A stretch of DNA of 28,355 nt from a virus. The DNA lies in IMG/VR virus record IMGVR_UViG_3300013115_000501, positions 1-28,355 of that record. The stretch is one strand, 5' to 3'. Below are positions 2-23,615 of the stretch, in pieces (within the stretch, counting starts at the first letter, position 1; every line of letters begins with the position of its first letter). A model generated the notes under the pieces. It ran no database searches. It had not been told where the DNA came from and was given only the letters and a program-made list of their open reading frames with translations. A program made the position numbers and the translations under genes.

Positions 2-3000
2 GAACTGGAAGCCCTGGCCGGCGAAGGTGCTCCGGTTGCCGAGGAAGCCGAAGGCGAGGAAGCCGCGCCTCTGACTCCTGGCGAGCGGGTGGCCGAGGCA
101 TTCTCCGAGCGTTTGGCGAGCGAGTCCATCCACAGTTCGCAAGACGTGGGCATTATCGCGGAACTCCTGAAGCGTGTGACCGAGGTGCGTGCCGCTGACC
201 CGGCCATTGGGGAGCGAGCATTCGAGGAGGCTGACATCCAGGTGGAGGGCCCGCGTGCCCGGAAGCCAACCCTGGAGAAGGCCCTCGATCGCATTGGGCT
301 CCTCGATCTCATCGGAGACATACGCAAGGGGCGCACGCCCGAAGACCGGGTGATGAAGACCAAGCACCCCGTTCTGAATATCATCCGCAACCAGGGCGGC
401 ATTGCGACGGTCAGGCAGAACGCTGCGGGCGAGTGGGAGCGGACAACGCTGGCAGGCGAATTGGCCGCGATGGACATCACACCGAAGACGTTCCCCGGCC
501 TATTCCGTGACCCCCGGAAGGCGCGCGGTAACAGGCCAGCCCCACGCGGTGAGGTCGATGCGTTTGACTTTACGGAGTCTGGGCTCTTCGAGGTGGATGA
601 CCGGGGGCATGTTGTCGATGTCAACGATGTGCTGGAAGCGATTTCGGAAGAGGTCGCGGGCCGCCCCAGGCCCACTCGGGAAGAAGCGGAAGAGATGGGC
701 GCGATCAGCCAGCCCCGGCTGGAACTCGAGAGGGTCTTTTCGGAGTTGGGGATCGATCCCGAGGTAATGACCGACGAAGAGATTCTGGAGTCTCTCAGCC
801 GGTACATCCCCGAGGCCCCAGACCCTGCGGTCGAGGAGGTCAGCCTTGACGAGGACGATGATCCCTTCTTCCAGACGCTGAACCAGAATGCCTACACCAA
901 GTCTGCCGACATGACGCCCGAGCAGACGGCGGCAGCGTTCCGGCATATCGACTCCCGGCCGGATGCTGAGCGCATCCGCGAAGCCCTGGTGCGGCTGCAC
1001 GGGACTCCCTGGGAAGACCAAGCCATGTACGGCGCGCTAATCCGCCAGCACCTGGAAGACCTCATGGCGGGGAGCGAGGTGGATTACACGAGCGGGCTCG
1101 ATGAGGTGGGCAAGAACGGCAAGCCGGGCTGGATACGCTTGGCCGCCGAGGAAGGCCCCGAGGCGCTTTGGCGTGGGCTAGAGAAGTACAAGGTGCTGGG
1201 CACGCCCGGCAAGCCTGTCTGGGCCATCAACTCAAGTTTCCTCAACTGTGAGCCCTCGGCGGATTGCGCGAAATTCTGTTACGCGGCAGACGGCTATCGG
1301 TACAAAACTGACGCTTCGGTAATGAAGAGCGAGGTGATCCAGTGGGCAGTTGAGCAGAATCCGCAGAGAGCCGGTGAGATTGGTGCCCGGCAATACAAGG
1401 CAACGGCAGAGTTTGCGGTAGGCAAGGCACTGCGGATCAATGACAAGGGCGACCTCTCCCCGGCCTATATCCCCTTTATCGAGTCGCTGAACAAGAACGG
1501 TGTGCGGACTCAGGTGTTCTCCAAGCGACCTGAACTGCTCCGTAAGGTGCCCGAGGACAACCTGCGCCTGTTGTCGGTCGATGACTCCAATAGCCAGCAG
1601 ATGGCCGCTGACAACCCTGACCTGTTGCTTGCCGTGGTCTACCAGGGCAGCGAAGACATCCCCTTCCTGAAGCAGTACGCGGACAGGGTGCAGGTCATCC
1701 TGCCCGTCAAGAAGGGGCAGAGGACGCTGGACAAGGCTGAGATCCAGGCGATCCCGAAAGAGTTCAGGCCCAATATCTGCCCGGTCGATGGGTTTGGTAA
1801 GACCGTTGGCACGATTGGCAAGTACAAGGACGGGAAGCCAGAGTGGAACTGCGGTTCCTGCGACAAGAACGCTGGGCTAGGCTGTTTCCGGGGGACGACC
1901 TCCAAGGCCATCCTCGACGTTATAGGGAAGGATCTACGCAATGCCCCAGAAGAACTCCTCGAAGACCTCGACTCCCTTATCAGCGCAGCCGGCGAGCTTG
2001 ATGGAGACGCAAGACGACTCCTTCTTGGACGGGCTAATCTACTCGTATCTGCGCTACGGGAGGGCGTTAAGCTCGAAGAAGCGGAAGCAACTCCTCAAGG
2101 CTATCAAGAAACAGGCGACCCTGACGGCCTCGGATCTGCTGAACTAGACCCAAAGACCACCACCCTCGAGCAGCCCGCAAGGCCGGGCACCCGTGGCTCG
2201 CTCACCTATGCCGAGGACTTGTCCAAGACGGTTCTGACTCTCTCGGAGTCTGAGAACCTTTCGACGGCCCTGCATGAACTCGGGCACCTCTTCTTTGTGA
2301 TGATGGTCAAGGATGCCCAGACCGAGGGCGTGCGCCCAGAACTCCAGAGGGACATGGAAACCGCCTTGAATTACCTGGGGGCTTCCTCGGTGCGGGATCT
2401 CATCAAAGACCCCGAGACTGGGCAACTCAGCGAGCAGGGGCGCGAGTTCCATGAACGCTGGGCCCGTTCCTTCGAGGCGTACCTGCGCGAGGGCAAAGCG
2501 CCGATCCCTGAACTCCGTGATGCGTTCCGTCGCTTCCGCAGTTGGCTGATCGAAGTCTACCGGCAGATCAGGGGCCTGAACGTCGAACTCTCCGATGACA
2601 TACGGGGAGTCTTCGACAGGTTGCTAGCCACCGAGGAGGCGATCGCGGCAGCGGCAGCGTCCAGCCCGGCCCAGCGTGCGTTTGAGTCTCAGGAGCAGTC
2701 TGGGCTCTCTGATGCAGAGTATGCCGCTTACGAGAAATCGTTCCGCCGCATATCGGACGAGGCTGAAGAGAGACTGATCGCCCAGGTGCTTCGCGAGGAG
2801 GCCCAAGCCGAGATCGAACGAGCAGGGAATCGACGCGACCAGGCACGCGAGCAGGCCGAGGTAGACGTGAGGGCCCGGCCGGTTGCTCAACTTCGCTACT
2901 GGCTGCAACGTGGCGAAACCATTGCCGAGGGTTCGCCAGCGGCAGGGCTCCCTACAGAGGGCAGGAAGCTCGACACGGCAAGGGTGGCGCAGATCTTGGG

Positions 3001-6000
3001 GCGTTCCACCAAGGACGTGCAGCGGGTTATGGGGGGCACCGGGCAGTACGGCATGACCCAGCACGGTGGGCAAGAGCCGGGCATTGTGGCCGAGCTTTGG
3101 GGGTTCTCTTCTGCCGAGGCGATGATCCGCGCTCTCTACGACTCGAGTGGGATCGAGCAGGAGATCGAAGCGGAGACAGAGCGCAGACTACGGCAGGGCC
3201 AGGGCGATCCCTTGCGCGACGGGTCGATTCATGCCCGCGCCCAGGAGGCGATTGACGGGGACGCCAAGGCGAGTTTCCTGATGCGCCAGCTTTCTATCCT
3301 GGGGCACCGGGCGGGTATTGCGAAGAACCTGCCGCAGAAGGTGCTGAAGGACGCCGCCGAGCGAATCATTGACGGGAAGGCCATTCGGGACATCAGGCCC
3401 GGCCTGTACCGCGCCGCCGAGGCCAGGGCTTCCCAGGAGGTGCTCGATGCTGTGGCTGCCCAGGACTGGGCGGCAGCGCACGCGGCTGGCCGGCAGCAAC
3501 TCCTGAACCACTACCTGGCGAAGCAAGCCGAGGCCATGAAAGCCGAGAGCGAGAAGTGGCGACGGTTCTGGTCAGACTTCAACAAGAAGGCACTCCGCAA
3601 GCGGTTGGCCCAGACTGGCAGCGGATACCTCGAGGCTGCGGACTCACTTCTCGATCGGTTCGACATTCGCCAACTCTCGAACAAGCAGGCCAATATCAAC
3701 CTCGGTGAGTGGATGATGAGTATCCTCAGCAACGTCGATGCGTACAACAAGGCGCTAAACGGCGAGGACGGGAGCACGGGGACGATGCTCCCTGAGCCGC
3801 AGTTCGCCTTCAGGGAACTCGCCTTCGATACCGAGTACCGCAAGCACTGGCGGATGCTCACGGTGGCCGAGGCCAAAGAACTCACCGCTGCACTCTCCAA
3901 TATCAAGCACCTCGCGCTGCGAGAGTTGACGATCAAACTGGAGAACGAGGAGCGGGAGTTCCTGGCGGTTCGCAACGAAGCGACGGCGCAGATCACCAAG
4001 ACCCGCCGCAAGTTCAAGCCGCCGCCGATAGGCGCACGCAATGACCCGGCCCATACGCTCCACTCCTGGGCGGCAAACTATTTGGTGGATCACCGAAAGC
4101 CCACCTCTCTGCTCCACGAGATGGACGGCGGTTACGATGGGATAATGACCCGGCTCATTGTCCACCCGATGGACGCAAGCCACGCCAAGGAAGAGGCCAT
4201 GCTCCTCGACGCGGGGGAGAAACTCCAGGCCCTCTTCGCCCCCTATATCCGTAGCGGGTTCTTTGAACCAGACGCTTGGAAGCGGAGCCTCGACATGGGT
4301 GGGGTGGTGAGTCTGACAGCGAAGGCCCTGGACAAGAAGAGCCCACTGGCCCCGAGGATCACGGACAAGAAACTCGTGCCCGGCACGGCCAATATCGAAC
4401 TCTCCCATTTAGAGCGCATCATGGCAGTGATGAACATGGGCAACGCCGGGAACATGCAGAGGCTCGAGGATGGCTACCACTGGAACCGTGAAGAGATGCG
4501 GGCAATTCTGGCAACCATGCAGAAGCCCGATATGGATTTCATCCAGGGGGTTTGGGACTTCATCGAGACATACTGGGAAGAGATCGCCGCGATTGAGAAG
4601 CGGCGCACCGGGGTCAAGCCCGAGAAGGTCAAGGCCATCGAGATCCAGACCCCGTTTGGGACATACCGGGGCGGGTACTTCCCTGCCGTCTACGATGGGG
4701 ATCAGCTTGCGATTGCCACGACCAACACTGACACTTTTGAGGCTTACCAGGACTTCCTCGCCGCCCAAGGCAGAACGAAGACCCAGGACAGTTTCACGAA
4801 GGCCCGCGCTCGCAAGGTCAAGAACAGGCCCATGCGGCTTGATTTCGATGTGATCTTTCGGCATGTGGGGGATGTGATTCACCGGCTCTCGTTTGAGGAT
4901 TGGGCAGTCAATACCGGCAAGCTCTTGGCCGATCAGCATATGGCCCAGACGATCCTCGAGATGTATGGCCCCGAGGTATGGAGGGCCATCAAGGACTGGC
5001 ACGCCGATGTAGTCCGTGGCGAAGGGCAAGGGGTCACTACTGCGACGGAGAGGCTCTCGGGGTATTTCAGAACCGGCATGGCAGTGTCCTCAATGGGCAT
5101 GAACCTGGGCACGTCAATCCTCCAGCCCTGGGGATTGTTCAATGCGCTGAAGCCCTCCAATCTCGGGCCCAAGTGGGTCGCGAAGGGTTTTCAGAGTTGG
5201 TGGCGGGACTTCGATAGTGCGGAGGGGCAGGCTCACATGATTCGCACTATTCGCCATATCCGCGAGGTGTCTCCGACCATGCGGAACCGGCTCTCGGCTG
5301 CCGCCTCGAATACGCGGGAGATGCGGGAAGTGGCGAGCCAGTTGAACAAGGAGGGGGTTCTGGGCCCAGTGCGTAGCAAGTTCTTCCTGCCGATAATTAT
5401 GATGCAGGCGACGGTGGACATACCGATATGGCTTGGCGCATACGCGAAAGAGATGCAGACCGGGAGCGGCGAAGAGTCCAAGGCGATCGCGATGGCCGAC
5501 AGGATGGTCATCAATACCCAGGGCAGTGGCCGCATTGGCGACCTGTCAGGAGCCCAGCGTCAGCAAAAGGTTCTAACCCTGTTCATGTCATTTATGAATA
5601 CAGTGAACGACCAAGCCGCTCTGGACATCCGCTGGGCCAGGAGCGGAAACATCAACCCCATGAAGCTAGCCCTAGGACTGGCCTCGCTCTATATGCCATA
5701 CGTTTTTACGAAGATGATGCAGGACTTCCTACGCGACTCCTGGGACGAAGAGGAAGACGATCCGTGGCCTCTCTTTGCTCTAAAATACGGAGCGGGAGCA
5801 ATAGCGGGGGGGTATTTCGGTGGGTTCACAGTAATACGAGAAGGCACCGGGATGATCGAAGGGTTCGACTATCGAGGCCCAGCGGCTCTGGGCATCGTTC
5901 CCAAAACCGCCGCTGCCGTGAAGGTACTCCTGGACGAAGACCCGATCGATGATAGGGGAGTGACTTCGCTCATCATGGCGACCTCTGTAGTCGCCCGCGT

Positions 6001-6094
6001 GCCTGGCGTGCAGCCCAAACGCTGGTACGAGTTGTGGATGGAAGACGAAGACATAGACCTGGGCACCATTGTCTACGGCCCAAGGAAGGACTGA
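2..6094 (+). CDS. Giant phage polyvalent protein (5'-truncated) with GP88-like and zincin domains
   Basis: The frame is open to the left edge, so the N-terminus is missing. GTG at 89 is only an internal codon, though it is used for numbering here. Over 2000 residues remain. Residues about 365-600 carry a Cys-rich domain like the phage GP88 family: NCEPSADCAKFCYA, then LRINDKGDLS, then WNCGSCDKNAGLGCF. About 700-850 is a zincin domain with HELGH at 729-733, the type found in large polyvalent phage proteins. The middle is charged and helical. The C-terminal 700 residues contain a GGYFPAVYD segment and weakly hydrophobic helices near the end. Proteins of this type are packed in the virion and ejected with DNA; host-takeover or peptidase roles are inferred. 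The tailspike gene starts 3 bases after the stop, which fits a late virion operon. The class is confident; individual functions are not proven. Confidence 0.85.
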   Translation, partial: ELEALAGEGAPVAEEAEGEEAAPLTPGERVAEAFSERLASESIHSSQDVGIIAELLKRVTEVRAADPAIGERAFEEADIQVEGPRARKPTLEKALDRIGLLDLIGDIRKGRTPEDRVMKTKHPVLNIIRNQGGIATVRQNAAGEWERTTLAGELAAMDITPKTFPGLFRDPRKARGNRPAPRGEVDAFDFTESGLFEVDDRGHVVDVNDVLEAISEEVAGRPRPTREEAEEMGAISQPRLELERVFSELGIDPEVMTDEEILESLSRYIPEAPDPAVEEVSLDEDDDPFFQTLNQNAYTKSADMTPEQTAAAFRHIDSRPDAERIREALVRLHGTPWEDQAMYGALIRQHLEDLMAGSEVDYTSGLDEVGKNGKPGWIRLAAEEGPEALWRGLEKYKVLGTPGKPVWAINSSFLNCEPSADCAKFCYAADGYRYKTDASVMKSEVIQWAVEQNPQRAGEIGARQYKATAEFAVGKALRINDKGDLSPAYIPFIESLNKNGVRTQVFSKRPELLRKVPEDNLRLLSVDDSNSQQMAADNPDLLLAVVYQGSEDIPFLKQYADRVQVILPVKKGQRTLDKAEIQAIPKEFRPNICPVDGFGKTVGTIGKYKDGKPEWNCGSCDKNAGLGCFRGTTSKAILDVIGKDLRNAPEELLEDLDSLISAAGELDGDARRLLLGRANLLVSALREGVKLEEAEATPQGYQETGDPDGLGSAELDPKTTTLEQPARPGTRGSLTYAEDLSKTVLTLSESENLSTALHELGHLFFVMMVKDAQTEGVRPELQRDMETALNYLGASSVRDLIKDPETGQLSEQGREFHERWARSFEAYLREGKAPIPELRDAFRRFRSWLIEVYRQIRGLNVELSDDIRGVFDRLLATEEAIAAAAASSPAQRAFESQEQSGLSDAEYAAYEKSFRRISDEAEERLIAQVLREEAQAEIERAGNRRDQAREQAEVDVRARPVAQLRYWLQRGETIAEGSPAAGLPTEGRKLDTARVAQILGRSTKDVQRVMGGTGQYGMTQHGGQEPGIVAELWGFSSAEAMIRALYDSSGIEQEIEAETERRLRQGQGDPLRDGSIHARAQEAIDGDAKASFLMRQLSILGHRAGIAKNLPQKVLKDAAERIIDGKAIRDIRPGLYRAAEARASQEVLDAVAAQDWAAAHAAGRQQLLNHYLAKQAEAMKAESEKWRRFWSDFNKKALRKRLAQTGSGYLEAADSLLDRFDIRQLSNKQANINLGEWMMSILSNVDAYNKALNGEDGSTGTMLPEPQFAFRELAFDTEYRKHWRMLTVAEAKELTAALSNIKHLALRELTIKLENEEREFLAVRNEATAQITKTRRKFKPPPIGARNDPAHTLHSWAANYLVDHRKPTSLLHEMDGGYDGIMTRLIVHPMDASHAKEEAMLLDAGEKLQALFAPYIRSGFFEPDAWKRSLDMGGVVSLTAKALDKKSPLAPRITDKKLVPGTANIELSHLERIMAVMNMGNAGNMQRLEDGYHWNREEMRAILATMQKPDMDFIQGVWDFIETYWEEIAAIEKRRTGVKPEKVKAIEIQTPFGTYRGGYFPAVYDGDQLAIATTNTDTFEAYQDFLAAQGRTKTQDSFTKARARKVKNRPMRLDFDVIFRHVGDVIHRLSFEDWAVNTGKLLADQHMAQTILEMYGPEVWRAIKDWHADVVRGEGQGVTTATERLSGYFRTGMAVSSMGMNLGTSILQPWGLFNALKPSNLGPKWVAKGFQSWWRDFDSAEGQAHMIRTIRHIREVSPTMRNRLSAAASNTREMREVASQLNKEGVLGPVRSKFFLPIIMMQATVDIPIWLGAYAKEMQTGSGEESKAIAMADRMVINTQGSGRIGDLSGAQRQQKVLTLFMSFMNTVNDQAALDIRWARSGNINPMKLALGLASLYMPYVFTKMMQDFLRDSWDEEEDDPWPLFALKYGAGAIAGGYFGGFTVIREGTGMIEGFDYRGPAALGIVPKTAAAVKVLLDEDPIDDRGVTSLIMATSVVARVPGVQPKRWYELWMEDEDIDLGTIVYGPRKD

Positions 6095-14944: not shown

Positions 14945-15311
14945 GCGCCTCCCCACCCGCGCCCGCCTGCACCAGATCCTGCGCTGGGCCTGCCACACAT
15001 GGGACACTGCCGCGCGCCTCCGCGTCGAGAAGCGTCTGCCCAAGGCGTACAAGGGGTGTCTTGGATGCGTGGAGTTCCCCGATGAGTTCCCGAAAGGGTT
15101 GCCGCCGCTGATCCGCGTCCTCAAAACCAACCGATCGCAGAGCGCGGAGACCCTGTTGCATGAGTTCGCCCACATCCTCGACGCGCACCGAAATGGGTTC
15201 AGCGATAGCCGGAAACACGAAGGCCACGACGCGAAGTTCCGCAACGTGGCCCATGAGGTGCTGGTTCGCTTCGTCTACGAAGGGGGCGAGGTCGAGAGTC
15301 AGGATTTCTGA
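14937..15311 (+). CDS. SprT-like small zinc metallopeptidase
   Basis: 124 residues from ATG 14937, overlapping the phosphoesterase end by eight bases; a longer in-frame extension upstream lies wholly inside that gene and is rejected. The core is LLHEFAHILDAH with HExxH at 75-79. A second conserved block GHDAKFRNVAHEVL (H97) gives the third ligand, as in SprT/Spartan-type domains (HExxH...HGxxF). Two cysteines, C41 and C44, form a CxxC that might bind another metal. SprT-like domains in cells act on DNA-bound proteins; a role in virions or against host proteins is conjecture. It is the last gene of the rightward late block. Confidence 0.7.
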   Translation: MGKRLPTRARLHQILRWACHTWDTAARLRVEKRLPKAYKGCLGCVEFPDEFPKGLPPLIRVLKTNRSQSAETLLHEFAHILDAHRNGFSDSRKHEGHDAKFRNVAHEVLVRFVYEGGEVESQDF

Positions 15312-15335
15312 GCCCCTCTGAGCCCCTCTGAGCCC
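15308..15335. repeat. Tandem 10-bp repeat at convergent gene ends
   Basis: The unit CTGAGCCCCT occurs at 15308 and 15318 and partly at 15328. The first copy contains the stop codon of the SprT-like gene. Because the unit is 10 bp, TGA appears at 15309, 15319 and 15329, closing all three forward frames. The rest of the convergent gap (15336-15382) is C-rich and shows no clear hairpin with a U tract. Confidence 0.8.
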
Positions 15336-15382
15336 CGATCTCCCACCCCTCACCCCAGTCCACCCGGCAGGATAAAGCCCCG

Positions 15383-17357: not shown

Positions 17358-17869
17358 CACTTGATGACCAGCCGTTCCTCTTGGACGAGGCGACAACCCT
17401 CAACTTCTTTCCCCGCTTTCAGGTCCGCCTTGATCGCGGCCTTGTCTGCTTCGATCTTCGGCGGGTGCTGATGCTCCGGCTTGAGTTGCCAGGGCTCCAC
17501 ATCGATTTCGACGCGGGGTGGCGTCTTGCGCCATGACACCGTGACGAGGTGATTCTTCACCGTTTCCCTGCCGACGATCCGTGGTGCGTGGCGAGCGAGG
17601 TATTCCTTCAACTTCTCGGCTTGCCGTTCGTGAAGGCGTTGCCGCTTGGTGAGCCGACCGACCTCTGCCTTGACCATCTCGGCCTCGCGCAGCAGTCCCT
17701 GCTGGAAAAGCGCAACGTCGAGGATCTTGTGGCGGCCCTGCTCAATGACATCATCGAGAAATTCCGCGAGCGACTCGTCTGTGATCTCGCCCGTTTCACG
17801 GTCGATCGCTGCGCTCATCGCCAATTCAACGTCATTGCCGTGCTCGTAGAGGCGTTTTGAGTCAGCCAT
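17357..17869 (-). CDS. Siphovirus Gp157-family protein
   Basis: 170 residues, ATG at 17869 overlapping the previous stop (TGATG). It has the usual layout: an acidic N-terminus with IDRETGEITDESLAEFLDDVIEQ, a long helix (EMVKAEVGRLTKRQRLHERQAEKLKEYLARH, residues about 65-95) and a C-terminal beta part (VSWRKTPPRVEIDVEPW). In streptococcal phages Gp157 members have been linked to phage resistance and often sit beside recombination genes, as here with an SSB-like and a Rad52-like gene. The molecular function is not established. Length fits the family. Confidence 0.8.
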   Translation of the reverse strand: MADSKRLYEHGNDVELAMSAAIDRETGEITDESLAEFLDDVIEQGRHKILDVALFQQGLLREAEMVKAEVGRLTKRQRLHERQAEKLKEYLARHAPRIVGRETVKNHLVTVSWRKTPPRVEIDVEPWQLKPEHQHPPKIEADKAAIKADLKAGKEVEGCRLVQEERLVIK

Positions 17870-18591
17870 CAGAAAGGCACCTCCTTAGTGTTGGGCGTCC
17901 ACTTCTTGATCTCGGACACCAGCGTTTCGAGTTTCGTGGCAGGCAGTTCTGACGATTCGTTGAACCCGAGGTTCTTCAGAGCGCCCAGGCCAATGGTCTT
18001 GACCTCGCTGGGCTTCAGGCCCAACTCAATCGCCCGCTCTCGCGTGACCTTGCCAACCCTGGCCCACTCCTCTTTCGTCAGCTTGCCGTTGGACTTCGGT
18101 GCGACCTTCTTGGGGGCCGGAGGTTGGGGCGGCTTGCCGTTGCCGTGCTTCGCGTTCTGCTCCGCCACGTATTTCGAGTCATCGAAGCGGCCCAGAAAAA
18201 CGTCCGCGCTGAATCCCAGGAGACTGAGGCACTTCGTAAAGGCATCAGTCACCGCTTTCTTCGGCGCATCCGCATCGACCCGCTGGCCGAAGGAAGCAGC
18301 ACCGTACTGCTCCACCGCCCCCTGCTCGCCCGTCTCCGGGTCAGTGAACCAGAGCCTCCCACGGATAATAAAGAGGTCAGCGGGGCCGTCCTCGCGAGTC
18401 CAGTCGAATCCCCAACCGACACCCATCGGCCCACCGAATGCAGTGGTGGCCTGAAGCACTTGCCACTGTGCGTCGATAGCCGTGAAGCCGCCGCGCTGGT
18501 TCACGTGGCGAGTGTGCGCCGGGTCAGTGGTTTCCACCTGCGACCAGAGCCGCAGAGGGTCGAGAGTCTTGTCGGTTTTTTTGGCAGCCAT
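17869..18591 (-). CDS. Rad52-like single-strand annealing protein (putative)
   Basis: 240 residues from ATG 18591, which overlaps the upstream TGA; an open extension to 18705 lies inside the neighbouring gene. The N-terminal half (LRLWSQVETTDPAHTRHVNQ, then GFDWTREDG, then AAASFGQRVD-type segment AAPKKAVTDAFTKC replaced here by DAPKKAVTDAFTKCLSLL) resembles phage Rad52/Sak-type annealing proteins, whose core ends in a K-x2-TDAx-K-LSxLGF helix. Here that ends GFSADVFLGRFDDSKY. A Pro/Lys linker leads to a helical C-terminus (LTKEEWARVGKVTRERAIELG). It would promote strand annealing during recombination-dependent replication, with the SSB-like protein encoded just upstream. The call is family-level by pattern. 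Confidence 0.65.
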   Translation of the reverse strand: MAAKKTDKTLDPLRLWSQVETTDPAHTRHVNQRGGFTAIDAQWQVLQATTAFGGPMGVGWGFDWTREDGPADLFIIRGRLWFTDPETGEQGAVEQYGAASFGQRVDADAPKKAVTDAFTKCLSLLGFSADVFLGRFDDSKYVAEQNAKHGNGKPPQPPAPKKVAPKSNGKLTKEEWARVGKVTRERAIELGLKPSEVKTIGLGALKNLGFNESSELPATKLETLVSEIKKWTPNTKEVPF

Positions 18592-18926
18592 CAGAACGGC
18601 ATCCCTTCTGCTTCGTCCTGGAAGGTGTCGCGATCCACGAGCGTCTGGATCTTCCGCAAGCTCAATGTGTTGAAGCATCGCGAGTCGCCGCTGGGGTTCT
18701 CCCATTTCCGACCGCCCAGGGCGTAGTGGGCCACCACCGGGTCGCCTGCCGAGAAGTCCTCGAGAACGTCGATCATCTCGAACGTGGCCTCCAAGCAGAT
18801 GAATTCAGGCCGCTCCCTTTCCGCGTTGAGGCAGAGCCAAAGCTCCCGCTTCTTGAAATCGTTCTTGAAGGTTTGGACGGGGCCAACGAAATCGACCAGT
18901 CCATCTACGCGTGTGAGTTCAGGCAT
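18591..18926 (-). CDS. DUF3127-like, probable OB-fold single-strand DNA-binding protein
   Basis: 111 residues, ATG at 18926 with AAGGAAG upstream. The pattern VDFVGPVQTFKNDFKKRELWLCL, then FICLEATFEMIDVLEDFSAGDPVVAHYALGGRKW, then CFNTLSLRKI fits DUF3127, a small OB-fold family related to single-strand binding proteins. The FxKRE motif is characteristic. It heads the recombination part of the leftward operon and is directly coupled to the annealing protein. It likely coats ssDNA during replication and recombination. No acidic C-terminal tip is clear beyond DEAEGMPF. Confidence 0.75.
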   Translation of the reverse strand: MPELTRVDGLVDFVGPVQTFKNDFKKRELWLCLNAERERPEFICLEATFEMIDVLEDFSAGDPVVAHYALGGRKWENPSGDSRCFNTLSLRKIQTLVDRDTFQDEAEGMPF

Positions 18927-20115: not shown

Positions 20116-20334
20116 ATGGCCCACCCCATTCAGACTTTTCTCGCCGACAAGCCCAAGCAGACCCAAGCGTCTCTGGCCCGCGACTTGGGCGTAGGTAGAG
20201 CGCACATCTCGGAGATTGTCTCAGGGCGCTCCAAGCCCTCCTGGGCGCTTGCCCAGCGACTGGTCAAACTCACCGGGGGCGAGATTTCCCTCGCCGCCCT
20301 GGCGAATTGGGAGCCCGAGGAGGCCACAGAATGA
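20116..20334 (+). CDS. Cro/CI-like helix-turn-helix regulator
   Basis: 72 residues. TQASLARDLGVGRAHISEIVSGRSKPSWALAQRLVKLTGG (about 16-55) is a typical lambda-repressor-like HTH: helix 2 SLARDLG, turn, recognition helix RAHISEIVSG. There is no C-terminal peptidase domain, so it is Cro-like in size rather than a LexA-type CI. It is divergent from the leftward operon and first in the rightward one, and likely binds the 17-bp palindrome 66 bases upstream of its start. Its stop overlaps the next ATG (ATGA). The translation start is probably leaderless. Confidence 0.85.
   Translation: MAHPIQTFLADKPKQTQASLARDLGVGRAHISEIVSGRSKPSWALAQRLVKLTGGEISLAALANWEPEEATE
20319..20334 (+). repeat. 16-bp direct repeat, copy 1, at a gene junction
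   Basis: GGAGGCCACAGAATGA covers the Shine-Dalgarno, stop and start of the regulator/76-aa junction. A perfect second copy is at 20546-20561, covering the next junction. Confidence 0.8.
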
Positions 20335-20561
20335 GCGAGGAGAAGCCTACGGTGGCACTCTACGAGGGCGACCCACAGGGTTCTGGGCTGCGGTTTCTGG
20401 GGCGCACGGACAACGCAAGGCTCGTACGGCTGGTGCGTGAGCGGATAGACAAGGACAAAGCCAAGCGAAAGAAGTGGATTGAGGAGTTGGAGGTGGCTAC
20501 CGGGATGACCATAGAGGAAGCCCGCGAATGGTGGCGGCGAAAGCCGGAGGCCACAGAATGA
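20331..20561 (+). CDS. Small hypothetical protein (76 aa)
   Basis: ATG at 20331 overlaps the regulator's stop, and its own stop overlaps the next start in the same way. The product is basic and helical (RLVRLVRERIDKDKAKRKKW, then ATGMTIEEAREWWRRK). A nucleic-acid-associated role is possible from charge only. Its last residues (EATE) and the underlying 16 bases repeat the end of the preceding gene, see the repeat entries. Confidence 0.6.
   Translation: MSEEKPTVALYEGDPQGSGLRFLGRTDNARLVRLVRERIDKDKAKRKKWIEELEVATGMTIEEAREWWRRKPEATE
20546..20561 (+). repeat. 16-bp direct repeat, copy 2, at a gene junction
   Basis: Perfect copy of the element at 20319-20334. It serves as the ribosome-binding and ATGA coupling site of the replication gene. 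The two copies bracket the 76-aa ORF exactly. Confidence 0.8.
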
Positions 20562-21346
20562 AGGGGCACGTTCGCATTCCGCACGACTGGATTCTCGCTC
20601 ATCGGGGGGATGGCCGGGTTCTCGGGCTGGTCACCCTGCTCGAGCATTACCGATTCACGGGGGAGAGTATCTCCGTCCGGCAGCTTGCCCATGACTGCCA
20701 CCTGGACAAAAGCACCGTCTCGAGGATCTCCCGAAAGTGGAGAAACCACCTATTGGAGGCCGAAAACGAGCGAATGGCCGCAAGTGAGACAGTTGTGAGA
20801 CAAGAGTGGGACAAAATCTCGCCGCAAGTTGCCGATACTGCTGATGATTCTGAAAGCGGTGAGACAGTGGTGAGACAAGAGACAGACAAAGGTGAGACAG
20901 CCTTCTATCTACCTAAAGAACAAGAACAAGAACAAACAAAAGAGATAGCCCCAGACGCGGAGCGCCTGACCCTTCTCTTCGCTGACACCTTGGCCTCCGC
21001 TGCTGAAGAGCATGGGATCTCCCGCCGCAAGCAGGCGCGGCCTCCGAAGGCTTGGTTTGTCGAGATGGATCGTCTGTTGAGGCTGGACGGCATCCCGCCC
21101 GAGGTGGTGGAGTCGGTGCTGCTCTGGGCTCTGACCGAGAGCGACTTCTGGGGGACGGGTTGCGGCCAGGGCGTGCTTCAGAGCGTGCCGAAGCTGCGGA
21201 AGCATTGGGACATCATCGCGTCCCAGCGGGCGGAAGCGCAGCCAAGAGAGAGGTTTGACGTTGCCAAGCGCGTGCTGGCAGCCAGCGAGGGGGGGAAACG
21301 TGGACACCGAAGAGAAAGCGTTGCGCTTAGGTTGCTTAGAGAATAA
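20558..21346 (+). CDS. Phage replication initiator (O-like / replisome organiser)
   Basis: 262 residues from ATG 20558 (ATGA overlap; an upstream start at 20528 is less likely). Residues about 3-75 form a winged-helix domain (GRVLGLVTLLEHYRFTGESISVRQLAHDCHLDKSTVSRISRKW). The centre, residues 76-130, is low-complexity and encoded by an 11-bp iteron array. The C-terminal part (PPKAWFVEMDRLLRLDGIPPEVVESVLLWALTESDFWGTG, then LRKHWDIIASQ) resembles the C-terminal domain of phage replisome organisers and DnaD/DnaT-like proteins that contact the helicase loader. Iterons inside the initiator gene are the arrangement seen in lambda O. No phage polymerase is seen here, so host replication proteins are presumably recruited. 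Confidence 0.75.
   Translation: MKGHVRIPHDWILAHRGDGRVLGLVTLLEHYRFTGESISVRQLAHDCHLDKSTVSRISRKWRNHLLEAENERMAASETVVRQEWDKISPQVADTADDSESGETVVRQETDKGETAFYLPKEQEQEQTKEIAPDAERLTLLFADTLASAAEEHGISRRKQARPPKAWFVEMDRLLRLDGIPPEVVESVLLWALTESDFWGTGCGQGVLQSVPKLRKHWDIIASQRAEAQPRERFDVAKRVLAASEGGKRGHRRESVALRLLRE
20784..20945. other. Candidate replication origin: 11-bp iterons plus A-rich tract
   Basis: GTGAGACA recurs at 20784, 20795, 20859, 20870 and 20892, with degenerate copies at 20806 (GTGGGACA) and 20881 (GACAGACA). Within each of two clusters the spacing is exactly 11 bp, one helical turn. Since 11 is not a multiple of 3 the repeat passes through different reading frames, so selection acts on DNA, not on protein. 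An A-rich, G/C-poor run at about 20902-20945 (AAAGAACAAGAACAAGAAC and onwards) follows directly and could be the unwinding element. It lies inside the initiator gene. Confidence 0.7.
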
Positions 21347-21680
21347 CTGGCTGGCCTTCGGGCGCGAGATCAGCCCGGAAACGCTGCGCCTCCAGGCCAA
21401 TCTCACGAAGCGGATTCCCGTCGAGATATTCCGGGCAGCCTGCGAGCGGGCTTGTCTGCTGACGAAGGGGGGGTTTCCACCAGGGCCGGGGGACATTCTG
21501 GAGGCGGCGAGGTGCATCGCTCCGGGCGAAACCGTGCCCGGCCAGGAGAAGGCTACGCCCCGCTGGTGGCGGATTGCCGTCCGCGAAGTGCAGGGCAGGG
21601 TGGACGAGCGGCCCCAACTCCGAGGGCCACGGGGTGGCGAGGCGAGTTTTCTGAGCATTGCAAAGGGGGTAGGGGAATGA
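21300..21680 (+). CDS. Hypothetical protein, possible helicase-loader-like partner (126 aa)
   Basis: Start at GTG 21300, with GAGGGGGG 6-12 bases upstream, inside the end of the initiator gene (47-base overlap); an ATG-like start at 21255 would overlap more. The protein has LGCLENNWLAFGREISPETLRL and IPVEIFRAACERACLL, then a GGFPPGPGDILEAARC segment. I do not recognise a named family with certainty. The position directly after an initiator is where phage helicase loaders (lambda P-type) occur, so that role is suggested by context only. No Walker motif is present. Its 3' end carries the first copy of an 18-bp repeat. Confidence 0.55.
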   Translation: MDTEEKALRLGCLENNWLAFGREISPETLRLQANLTKRIPVEIFRAACERACLLTKGGFPPGPGDILEAARCIAPGETVPGQEKATPRWWRIAVREVQGRVDERPQLRGPRGGEASFLSIAKGVGE

Positions 21681-21682
21681 CC
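21665..21682 (+). repeat. 18-bp direct repeat, left copy, at queC start
   Basis: GGGGGTAGGGGAATGACC, identical to 23600-23617. It contains the ribosome-binding purines, the upstream gene's stop and the queC ATG. The two copies bound the queC-queE-dpdA genes exactly. Confidence 0.85.
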
Positions 21683-22312
21683 GAAGAGAAAATCGGGCCG
21701 ATCCGAAAGGTCTTGCTGCTTTCGGGGGGCGTCGATTCAGCATTCCTCCTGAGCAAGTCGAGACTGGGCGAACTGCCCGCGTCAAAGGGGATGCTGTGCC
21801 CGGTTTTCGTTGGGTATGGGCAACCGTCTGAGAAGTCGGAATGGCTGGCCGCGCAAGCGTTGGCCGAGGCGATGAGGGTGCCGATCCTTCGCATCGACGT
21901 TTCGGGGATCGACCTGGGGGACATGGGATGGGGTGTGGACGCGAGAATCGTCCCCGCAAGGAATATGTGGCTGATCGCCTTGGCCGCATCTTGCGTTCCC
22001 GCCGCAAAGGGCGACGTGCCGCAGCTTGGCTTTTCCGAGAACGAGGTGTGGATCGGAGCCGCCCCCCAAGATCATCAGGACTATCCAGATTGCCGCGAAG
22101 GTTTCCTCTCGGCGATGCGCGTGGCGGCGCTTCGGATTGGCGTGGATCTCCGCTGGTCAGACGCCAGCCGGGAGGAACGGGTCGAACATCTGCGAGAGCA
22201 GAATCTCCTCAATCTGACGCATTCGTGCTACTGCAACGTGCCGTGTGGAGACTGCCCGTCCTGCTTGCAGGACAGCGTGGAACTCGACCCGGCGACATGG
22301 TTGCCAAGATGA
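21677..22312 (+). CDS. queC: 7-cyano-7-deazaguanine (preQ0) synthase QueC
   Basis: 211 residues, ATG at 21677 overlapping the previous stop. The PP-loop LLLSGGVDSAF has S16-G-G-V-D-S21. VPARNMWLIALAAS and DYPDCREGFL are QueC signatures (VPxRN and YPDCR). The C-terminal C184-x-C186-x3-C190-x2-C193-x2-C196 cluster is the zinc site. The enzyme converts 7-carboxy-7-deazaguanine plus ammonia and ATP to preQ0. No glutamine amidotransferase (Gat) extension is present, so the expected base is preQ0 rather than the amidated form. It is followed, with a 4-base overlap, by QueE, its upstream pathway enzyme, and then by a DpdA-like transglycosylase, indicating use in phage DNA rather than tRNA. QueD and FolE are not in the window. 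Confidence 0.93.
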   Translation: MTEEKIGPIRKVLLLSGGVDSAFLLSKSRLGELPASKGMLCPVFVGYGQPSEKSEWLAAQALAEAMRVPILRIDVSGIDLGDMGWGVDARIVPARNMWLIALAASCVPAAKGDVPQLGFSENEVWIGAAPQDHQDYPDCREGFLSAMRVAALRIGVDLRWSDASREERVEHLREQNLLNLTHSCYCNVPCGDCPSCLQDSVELDPATWLPR

Positions 22313-22899
22313 AATTGGCGTGGCCTCCGTTCTGGACGATCCAAGGCGAGGGGCACCTGACCGGGCAGGGGATGGTGTTCTTGCGTTTCGCCGGTTGCTC
22401 AGTTGGGTGCCCTGGGTGCGACACGAACTACTCTGCGAAAACGCGGATGAGTCCCGAGGAAATAACCGAGAGCGTTCTCGCTGAGTTTCCACGCGAAATC
22501 CACGGCAGGAATCGCTGGGTCTGGCTGACGGGCGGGGAACCGACCGACCGCAATCTTGACCCCTTGCTGAAACTGTTCTCGGAGGCTGGTCTGAGCGTGG
22601 CACTCGCCACCTCTGGGGTGCGGCCGGTGAGGAACCCCGTCGATTGGCTGAGCGTGAGCCCTCACACCACGGAGTTGGCCCAGACATGGGGGAACGAGAT
22701 CAAGCTCGTGCCGGGCCTGAACGGGCTCGACCCGTGGAGTTGGCTGGAGGAGTGGGACTCGAAACTGAATTTCTGGCTCCGCTTCTTCCAGCCGCTCGAC
22801 GGTGACCCGGACTCCCTGGAGGTGTGCAAAGAAATTTTTAAAGCCTATCCGCACTGGGGGATCAGCCTCCAGACTCACAAGTTGATGGGGTTGCCCTGA
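22309..22899 (+). CDS. queE: 7-carboxy-7-deazaguanine synthase QueE (radical SAM)
   Basis: 196 residues from ATG 22309, chosen for its ATGA overlap with queC; ATG 22297 is an alternative. FWTIQGEGHLTGQ is the classic QueE start. GCSVGCPGCDT places C30, C34 and C37 as the CxxxCxxC ligands of the 4Fe-4S cluster. WLTGGEPT is the radical-SAM GGEP motif, and LQTHKLMGLP is the usual C-terminal end of the family. It makes 7-carboxy-7-deazaguanine from 6-carboxytetrahydropterin, which the host would have to supply. It feeds QueC directly. Confidence 0.92.
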   Translation: MKLAWPPFWTIQGEGHLTGQGMVFLRFAGCSVGCPGCDTNYSAKTRMSPEEITESVLAEFPREIHGRNRWVWLTGGEPTDRNLDPLLKLFSEAGLSVALATSGVRPVRNPVDWLSVSPHTTELAQTWGNEIKLVPGLNGLDPWSWLEEWDSKLNFWLRFFQPLDGDPDSLEVCKEIFKAYPHWGISLQTHKLMGLP

Positions 22900-23615
22900 T
22901 GCTCCGCGTTTACCTTGCATCCCCGGACAACCAACTCCAGGCCAATGCGGCCAGGGAGCAACCCGTGCTGCTCTCGTTTGCGCTTGCGTCCAAGAAGCCG
23001 TTTCTGGAAAAGGGATACCTCGCTTCCTTTGGCAGGGTGCTTTGTGATTCTGGAGCGTTCTCGGCCCACAACTCCGGGGCAGTGATCGACCCCGTAGCTT
23101 ACCGTGCCTGGGCGGAAAGCATCCCATGGGCAGACAACTGGGCGGCGCTGGACAGCATCGCGGGCGACTGGCGCGAGGGCATGAAGAACGCGGAGGCGTT
23201 TGGGTTTCCGACGTTCCACGATTCTGATCCCGATGACACGCTGGAGCCGCTGATCCAAATCTCAAGGGAGCGCGGCAACTGGTTGGGGATTGGTCTACTC
23301 CCACCGCGCACGGGCAGAGGCGACTGGTTGGCGCGCACGCTTGACCGCATTCCCGAGGATATCCATGTCCACGGCTGGGCGCTGGGGGGGTACGCGCTGA
23401 CCCATCACCGAATCAACTCGTTCGACTCAACTCACTGGTGGCGGGATGGGCAGAAATTGCGGCAGCGGATGCCCTGGCTCACCTATGGAGAAACGCTGGA
23501 AATCATGGTGAAGAAGATGCAGCGGATGCGGAGAACGAGCGTGGAAACGGTGGGCCAGGAGGAGATGTTTTCGGGCGCGACGGTTCTGGAGATCGCGGAG
23601 GGGGTAGGGGAATGA
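22899..23615 (+). CDS. DpdA-like DNA guanine transglycosylase
   Basis: 238 residues; ATG shares one base with the queE stop. It has tRNA-guanine-transglycosylase-like features seen in phage DpdA: LCDSGAFSAH with D50 as a likely catalytic aspartate, a LLPP segment near 133-136, and HVHGWALGGYAL followed by SFDSTHW with D176, the second aspartate region. It lacks the C-terminal zinc site of tRNA TGT. DpdA enzymes swap guanine in DNA for preQ0-type bases. Placement directly after QueC and QueE makes preQ0 insertion into phage DNA the likely role. The protein is short for the family and ends in a tail (VLEIAEGVGE) encoded over an 18-bp repeat and resembling the end of the gene before queC (LSIAKGVGE). 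Confidence 0.8.
   Translation: MLRVYLASPDNQLQANAAREQPVLLSFALASKKPFLEKGYLASFGRVLCDSGAFSAHNSGAVIDPVAYRAWAESIPWADNWAALDSIAGDWREGMKNAEAFGFPTFHDSDPDDTLEPLIQISRERGNWLGIGLLPPRTGRGDWLARTLDRIPEDIHVHGWALGGYALTHHRINSFDSTHWWRDGQKLRQRMPWLTYGETLEIMVKKMQRMRRTSVETVGQEEMFSGATVLEIAEGVGE

Follow-up and report, generated by a model that had tools for sequence, protein, structure and literature searches.

An array of short direct repeats spaced exactly 11 bp apart inside the initiator gene of an uncultured phage is very probably the initiator-binding part of a lambda-like theta-replication origin. The array was found in a phage record of 28,355 bp, the whole of which was analysed and is called here the window. 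We infer binding, stoichiometry, melting and origin activity from sequence comparisons. An iteron-plus-unwinding-element origin was proposed at this place in an initial annotation of the DNA, and it is supported as the best reading of a gene that combines an N-terminal HTH domain, a disordered linker at the array and a C-terminal domain alignable with that of lambda O. The elements of the putative origin are the following:

20558-21346, + strand: initiator gene, 262 aa; open reading frame with an N-terminal HTH domain, a disordered linker and a C-terminal lambda-O-like (DnaD-like) domain
20558-20782, + strand: region that encodes the N-terminal HTH domain, which presumably reads the array (predicted helices, weak HTH matches, block replacement in comparison with relatives)
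20784-20813, + strand: iteron cluster 1, three units at 11-bp spacing (GTGAGACA, GTGAGACA, GTGGGACA)
20859-20899, + strand: iteron cluster 2, four units at 11-bp spacing (GTGAGACA, GTGAGACA, GACAGACA, GTGAGACA)
20901-20911, + strand: CCTTCTATCTA element, identical across all relatives in three reading frames; DNA homology resumes here
20907-20946, + strand: A-rich tract, presumed DNA unwinding element (nearest-neighbour stability scan)
20951-21250, + strand: region that encodes the C-terminal O-like domain, which presumably contacts a helicase loader or helicase (alignment with the lambda O C-terminus)

All seven units lie within the initiator gene, the ATG of which overlaps (ATGA) the stop codon of the small gene before it. 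Five units are exact copies of GTGAGACA (20784, 20795, 20859, 20870 and 20892), the unit at 20806 is GTGGGACA with one mismatch, and the degenerate unit at 20881, GACAGACA, has two mismatches, which confirms the coordinates and spacing of the two annotated clusters. Inside each cluster the repeats are out of frame, in line with the annotated shift of reading frame from unit to unit. The units were also said to lie on one face of the helix. This holds for the exact 11-bp phase inside each cluster, but only roughly between the clusters, since the 75 bp that separate them are no multiple of 11 and correspond to about 7.1 turns at 10.5 bp per turn, placing both on roughly one face. The units are asymmetric and in direct order, and their palindromicity is not above that of shuffles.

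On both strands of the window GTGAGACA was observed 5 times against 0.83 expected, a number reached in none of 100 shuffles, and no copy was found outside the array. Period 11 in cluster 2 was detected by TRF as well. In synonymous shuffles, where codons are permuted among synonyms only and both protein and codon usage stay unchanged, the observed number of 11-bp-spaced unit pairs was reached in 3 cases out of 2000. None of the other 800-bp segments of the window reached this number at any spacing of 10-24 bp, and no RNA family, tRNA or promoter-like site accounts for the region. The array thus goes beyond chance and protein constraint, which argues for an origin; taken in the window alone, the signal is modest (3/2000 synonymous shuffles, TRF score of 42).

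Full-length relatives of the initiator are encoded by four viral contigs with three distinct sequences (L003 and L004 being nearly the same) and have the C-terminal domain in common with it, their C-terminal DNA being about 78-83% identical to that of the window. Upstream, the homology of the window to L002 and L004 ends at 20346 and resumes at 20899-20901, and that to L001 resumes at 20894. Such a break and restart indicates that the N-domain and the array were replaced as a block. The unit is CGAGACGATTT, in two clusters, in L001 and CAACCGAATCT in L002, while CAACCGGATCT plus GGGTAAATGGC are used in L003. Despite these different units, the main arrays keep exactly 11-bp spacing: the lag-11 score of L001, L002 and L003 was reached by 0 of 300 synonymous shuffles, and 11 was the best lag of 7-25. 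The linker peptides at the arrays are unrelated to that of the window. As 11 is not a multiple of 3, such arrays cannot arise from a peptide repeat. The expectation that the 11-bp phase would persist among relatives despite codon changes was borne out, with protein sequence and unit lost and the period retained. Homologues that keep the protein and lose the DNA repeat had been named as a refutation; the opposite was found, the period being kept and the protein changed. The retention of the period, with other units, next to the same C-terminus favours the origin, and the homologues show selection on the DNA itself.

Two observations on these loci are added. At 1780-1825 of L003 the second cluster uses GGGTAAATGGC and the first CAACCGGATCT, and a single reader domain does not explain both. 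In the window an exact 16-bp duplicate, GGAGGCCACAGAATGA, is present at 20319-20334 and 20546-20561 and flanks a small extra gene (20334-20561) that is missing at the equivalent place in the relatives; the duplicate is likely a footprint of the module exchange by which the N-domain arrived together with the array.

The A-rich tract annotated right behind the array is real: by nearest-neighbour energies, no other 40 bp of the window are as unstable as 20907-20946, immediately 3' of the repeats. This 40-bp stability minimum takes the equivalent place in L001, L002 and L004 and lies directly after the iterons in lambda, which again speaks for an origin. In the relatives the composition of the tract is kept and its peptide is not. 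The CCTTCTATCTA element is invariant in the window, L001, L002 and L003 in frames 1, 2, 0 and 2, respectively. Of 41 four-fold sites in the adjoining coding region, only 12 do not vary among the four sequences, so that 11 unconstrained invariant columns would arise with a chance of about 1e-6 (a rough value, sites being treated as independent), and this invariance across frames is a further argument for the origin. GC skew, suggested earlier as an origin pointer, was excluded from the evidence, as it tracks gene orientation and gives no independent signal.

In the model of the N-domain, helices were predicted at residues 19-34, 40-47 and from 51 onward with pLDDT of about 80-87. A domain search of the initiator N-terminus gave weak HTH matches only, fold prediction (mean pLDDT 54 and 50) was confident for the HTH alone, and Foldseek against PDB and BFVD was uninformative. 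The domain had been called a winged helix; the HTH part of this description is predicted, but the wing is absent from the low-confidence structure model, so the name is unsupported beyond HTH. Residues 79-132, encoded by the array and the A-rich tract, are predicted to be disordered (pLDDT < 50), in agreement with the earlier statement that the array encodes a disordered linker. Further on, phrog_2514 (DnaD-like helicase loader) matches residues 120-231 (E 5.1e-5) as well as lambda O (E 2.8e-37), and the C-terminus aligns with that of lambda O around the W...FW...S..KLR core, the homology being remote; this common domain also favours the origin reading. Phage_rep_O (PF04492) matches lambda O (E 5.7e-36) and has no match in the window protein, nor did Pfam match Rep_3 or another plasmid initiator domain there. 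Only remote Gordonia phage matches were obtained against proteins of named phages. Searches with the N-domains alone gave no further members of the window family, and mycobacteriophage matches at chance level only. The 141-aa ORF directly downstream of the initiator (21255-21680) is without a family match.

A scan for O-like C-termini yielded 23 distinct initiator genes, and most of the enterobacterial-looking ones carry lambda-type arrays at 20-24 bp; L030, described below, is an exception with its 11-bp array. Among 44 non-redundant initiators, arrays above all 150 synonymous shuffles were found in 11 cases at lag 11, in 1 at lag 10, in 3 at lag 12, in none at lag 13 or lags 16-19, and in 18 at lags 20-23, some of the lag-21 and 22 cases being harmonics or a 7-bp tract. 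Another group is formed by the RxRxIKPxFF initiators (PHROG 16167, 17247, 1408 and 2149), including those of HK639, Dewey, Bordetella IFTN and Vibrio 1.131.O phages, whose N-terminal domain is unrelated to that of the window. As in the window, 11-bp arrays lie in their linker before a low-complexity tract, but the tract is of the GATTCC or GGAAGG type, and the C-termini are of several unrelated kinds. In 110 independent, non-redundant genes of this group from bacterial genomes and viral contigs, a lag-11 array beyond all synonymous shuffles was present in 30, with 1 case at lag 10, none at lags 12 and 13, and 22 at lag 22. That 30 of 110 initiators with another kind of N-terminus have such an array, compared with a single one among 91 control genes, supports the origin. 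So does a pair of initiators with N-domain and array alike and unrelated C-termini: L030, which has ACGCGT three times at 11 bp and an N-domain of the RxRxIKPxFF type, and Vibrio phage 1.131.O, in which three ACGCGTCAACC-type units stand 11 bp apart and which shares the ACGCGT array with L030. Their N-domains are 61% identical, and their C-termini are without similarity. ACGCGT also occurs twice at 11 bp in Vibrio phage VvAW1, and L014 and Bantam gave weak lag-11 signals only. The 11-bp layout recurs in dozens of phages that are unrelated to one another and differ widely in the sequence of their repeats. The rep gene of TP901-1, considered as a further case, has no such array, and 40 of 300 synonymous shuffles do as well as its 15-bp repeat.

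Most 11-bp arrays of the RxRxIKPxFF set are followed by a CTGATTCC-type tract. In many of these genes this tract, right behind the array, is 7-bp-periodic and beats synonymous shuffles at lags 14 and 21; in actinophage genes an 8-bp GGAACAGG tract stands in its place. The lag-14 and 21 (perhaps 15) signals of the set appear to be due to the 7-bp GATTCC-type tract and were not counted as iterons. RxRxIKPxFF genes with a second periodic tract are the following:

L030, 2027-2890
L103, 1201-1905
L126-L285

In 36 genes with 11-bp arrays, the similarity of the units rose with the identity of the N-domains (partial Mantel 0.47, P 0.0005) but was not correlated with that of the C-domains (partial Mantel 0.01, P 0.41), as predicted for recognition by the N-domain. 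This result supports such recognition, to which the origin reading also appeals, though the correlation could be due in part to the neighbouring positions of N-domain and array within the gene. In the mechanism proposed, the N-terminal HTH domain would bind each asymmetric 11-bp unit head to tail, and one protomer per helical turn would place the protomers on one DNA face. The nucleoprotein filament would strain and then open the adjoining A-rich tract, and the C-terminal O-like domain would recruit a helicase or its loader. The peptide of the linker, which the array encodes, would be a by-product, constrained only to stay open and disordered.

The origin of lambda (ori-lambda, gene O), like that of the window, is situated within the initiator gene, where the DNA-binding N-domain is encoded on one side of it and the C-domain on the other, with a repeat array directly followed by an A-rich, easily melted tract, and the C-terminal domains are alignable. 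However, the iterons of lambda, 18-19 bp long and spaced by 20-24 bp, are imperfect inverted repeats, whereas the units of the window are asymmetric, direct and 11 bp apart, a difference from the longer lambda iterons that was noticed correctly from the start. The lambda O N-domain is Phage_rep_O, and that of the window initiator is not. Lambda iterons bind O dimers, and O opens the A+T-rich region beside them (PMC7466680; PMC5043065). Plasmid initiators, unlike lambda O dimers, bind direct, helically phased iterons as monomers (PMC5043065; PMC7466680), and plasmid iterons are asymmetric direct repeats in helix phase adjoining an A+T-rich region (PMC5043065). The window array is like those of iteron plasmids (P1, F, RK2, R6K type) in its asymmetric direct repeats in helical phase by such a region, but the Rep_3-type initiator domain of these plasmids was not found in the window protein, which gave weak HTH matches only. 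Plasmid iterons, as a rule, are about 17-22 bp long and located outside the rep gene, whereas the array of the window has an 11-bp pitch and is intragenic. The putative origin would work like that of lambda and occupies the same place, yet it lacks the inverted iterons of lambda and the unit length of plasmids. A precedent for the 11-bp one-face geometry is provided by the operators of CarH, an HTH protein that reads tandem 11-bp direct repeats on one DNA face (PMC9304148), although these are transcriptional operators, their unit nnnnTnnACAn is unmatched by the window, and the protein is unrelated to the window initiator. In mycobacterial RepA phages no repeats were found in the searched stretch outside the gene, and the origin was suggested to lie just upstream of repA or inside it (PMC7157519).

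Other explanations of the array were considered. The repeats could be a by-product of an 11-residue (33-bp) protein repeat, as the linker contains two copies of ETVVRQE...DK, one cluster encoding SETVVRQEWDK and the other GETVVRQETDK, with 88% identity across 32 nt. This explanation is already largely refuted and, in our opinion, highly improbable: the units stand at 11 bp, out of frame, and are rarely recreated by shuffles that preserve the peptide; relatives with unrelated peptides retain the period; and the region is predicted to be disordered. Hardly more credible is a mosaic or recombination junction in which the repeats were left by module exchange and CCTTCTATCTA is a boundary sequence, with no replication role. 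The DNA homology to the relatives, which ends at 20346 and resumes exactly at 20894-20901, would fit it, as would the 16-bp duplicate (20319 and 20546) around the extra small gene, but on either side of such exchanges every independent lineage carries an 11-bp array, each time with other units, and a boundary alone predicts neither the period nor the stability minimum.

An operator for the initiator itself or for the Cro-like HTH protein (20116-20334), which would control early transcription with the origin located elsewhere, is slightly less improbable, though still quite unlikely. Iteron initiators often autoregulate, the Cro-like gene is just upstream, and the HTH regulator CarH is known to have tandem direct repeats of 11 bp as its operators (PMC9304148). 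Against this, no promoter-like site was found at the array, which lies in the middle of the gene, and the unit is absent elsewhere in the window. The array, the A-rich tract and the O-like domain also occur together in a lambda-like manner.

In our opinion, one-turn 11-bp direct-repeat iterons in the initiator gene probably represent a general class of phage origins that is used with at least two unrelated N-terminal families, by phages and prophages from several phyla of bacteria. N-domain and array would then form an exchangeable specificity cassette on interchangeable helicase-recruiting domains. No description of 11-bp intragenic phage iterons was found in the open literature searched, and an earlier mention is possible. 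Mapped origins exist for few phages only. If this conclusion is true, the origins of very many phages and prophages, together with the site read by the initiator, could be read straight from sequence. The rule that emerges is a simple one: units spaced by one turn (11 bp) or two turns (about 21-23 bp) are looked for in the linker of the initiator, ahead of a tract of low complexity that often melts easily. For dozens of initiators the rule pairs a domain with its site sequence, which opens an HTH recognition code to experiment, as well as the transition from the inverted iterons of lambda, bound by dimers, to direct iterons of the monomer type. The array is also a clear case of a DNA function that shapes coding DNA, with the peptide it encodes shifting across all frames.

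Several other features of the window deserve mention. Within 21677-23615, a radical-SAM protein (QueE-like, by eye) and QueC (Pfam E 2e-16) are encoded by consecutive genes, and an ORF downstream of them (22899-23615) resembles a DpdA-type transglycosylase (by eye); this region is probably a 7-deazaguanine DNA modification cluster. A gene for a DUF3127 / PHROG single-strand-binding protein (18591-18926, - strand) adjoins an exonuclease-family (PHROG) gene (17869-18705), and both belong to a leftward recombination module. Between convergent genes, at 15307-15336, TCTGAGCCCC is repeated in tandem in three perfect copies. Finally, a 2,030-residue open frame at 2-6094, open at the window edge, encodes an unusually large multi-domain protein, which is perhaps carried in the virion.
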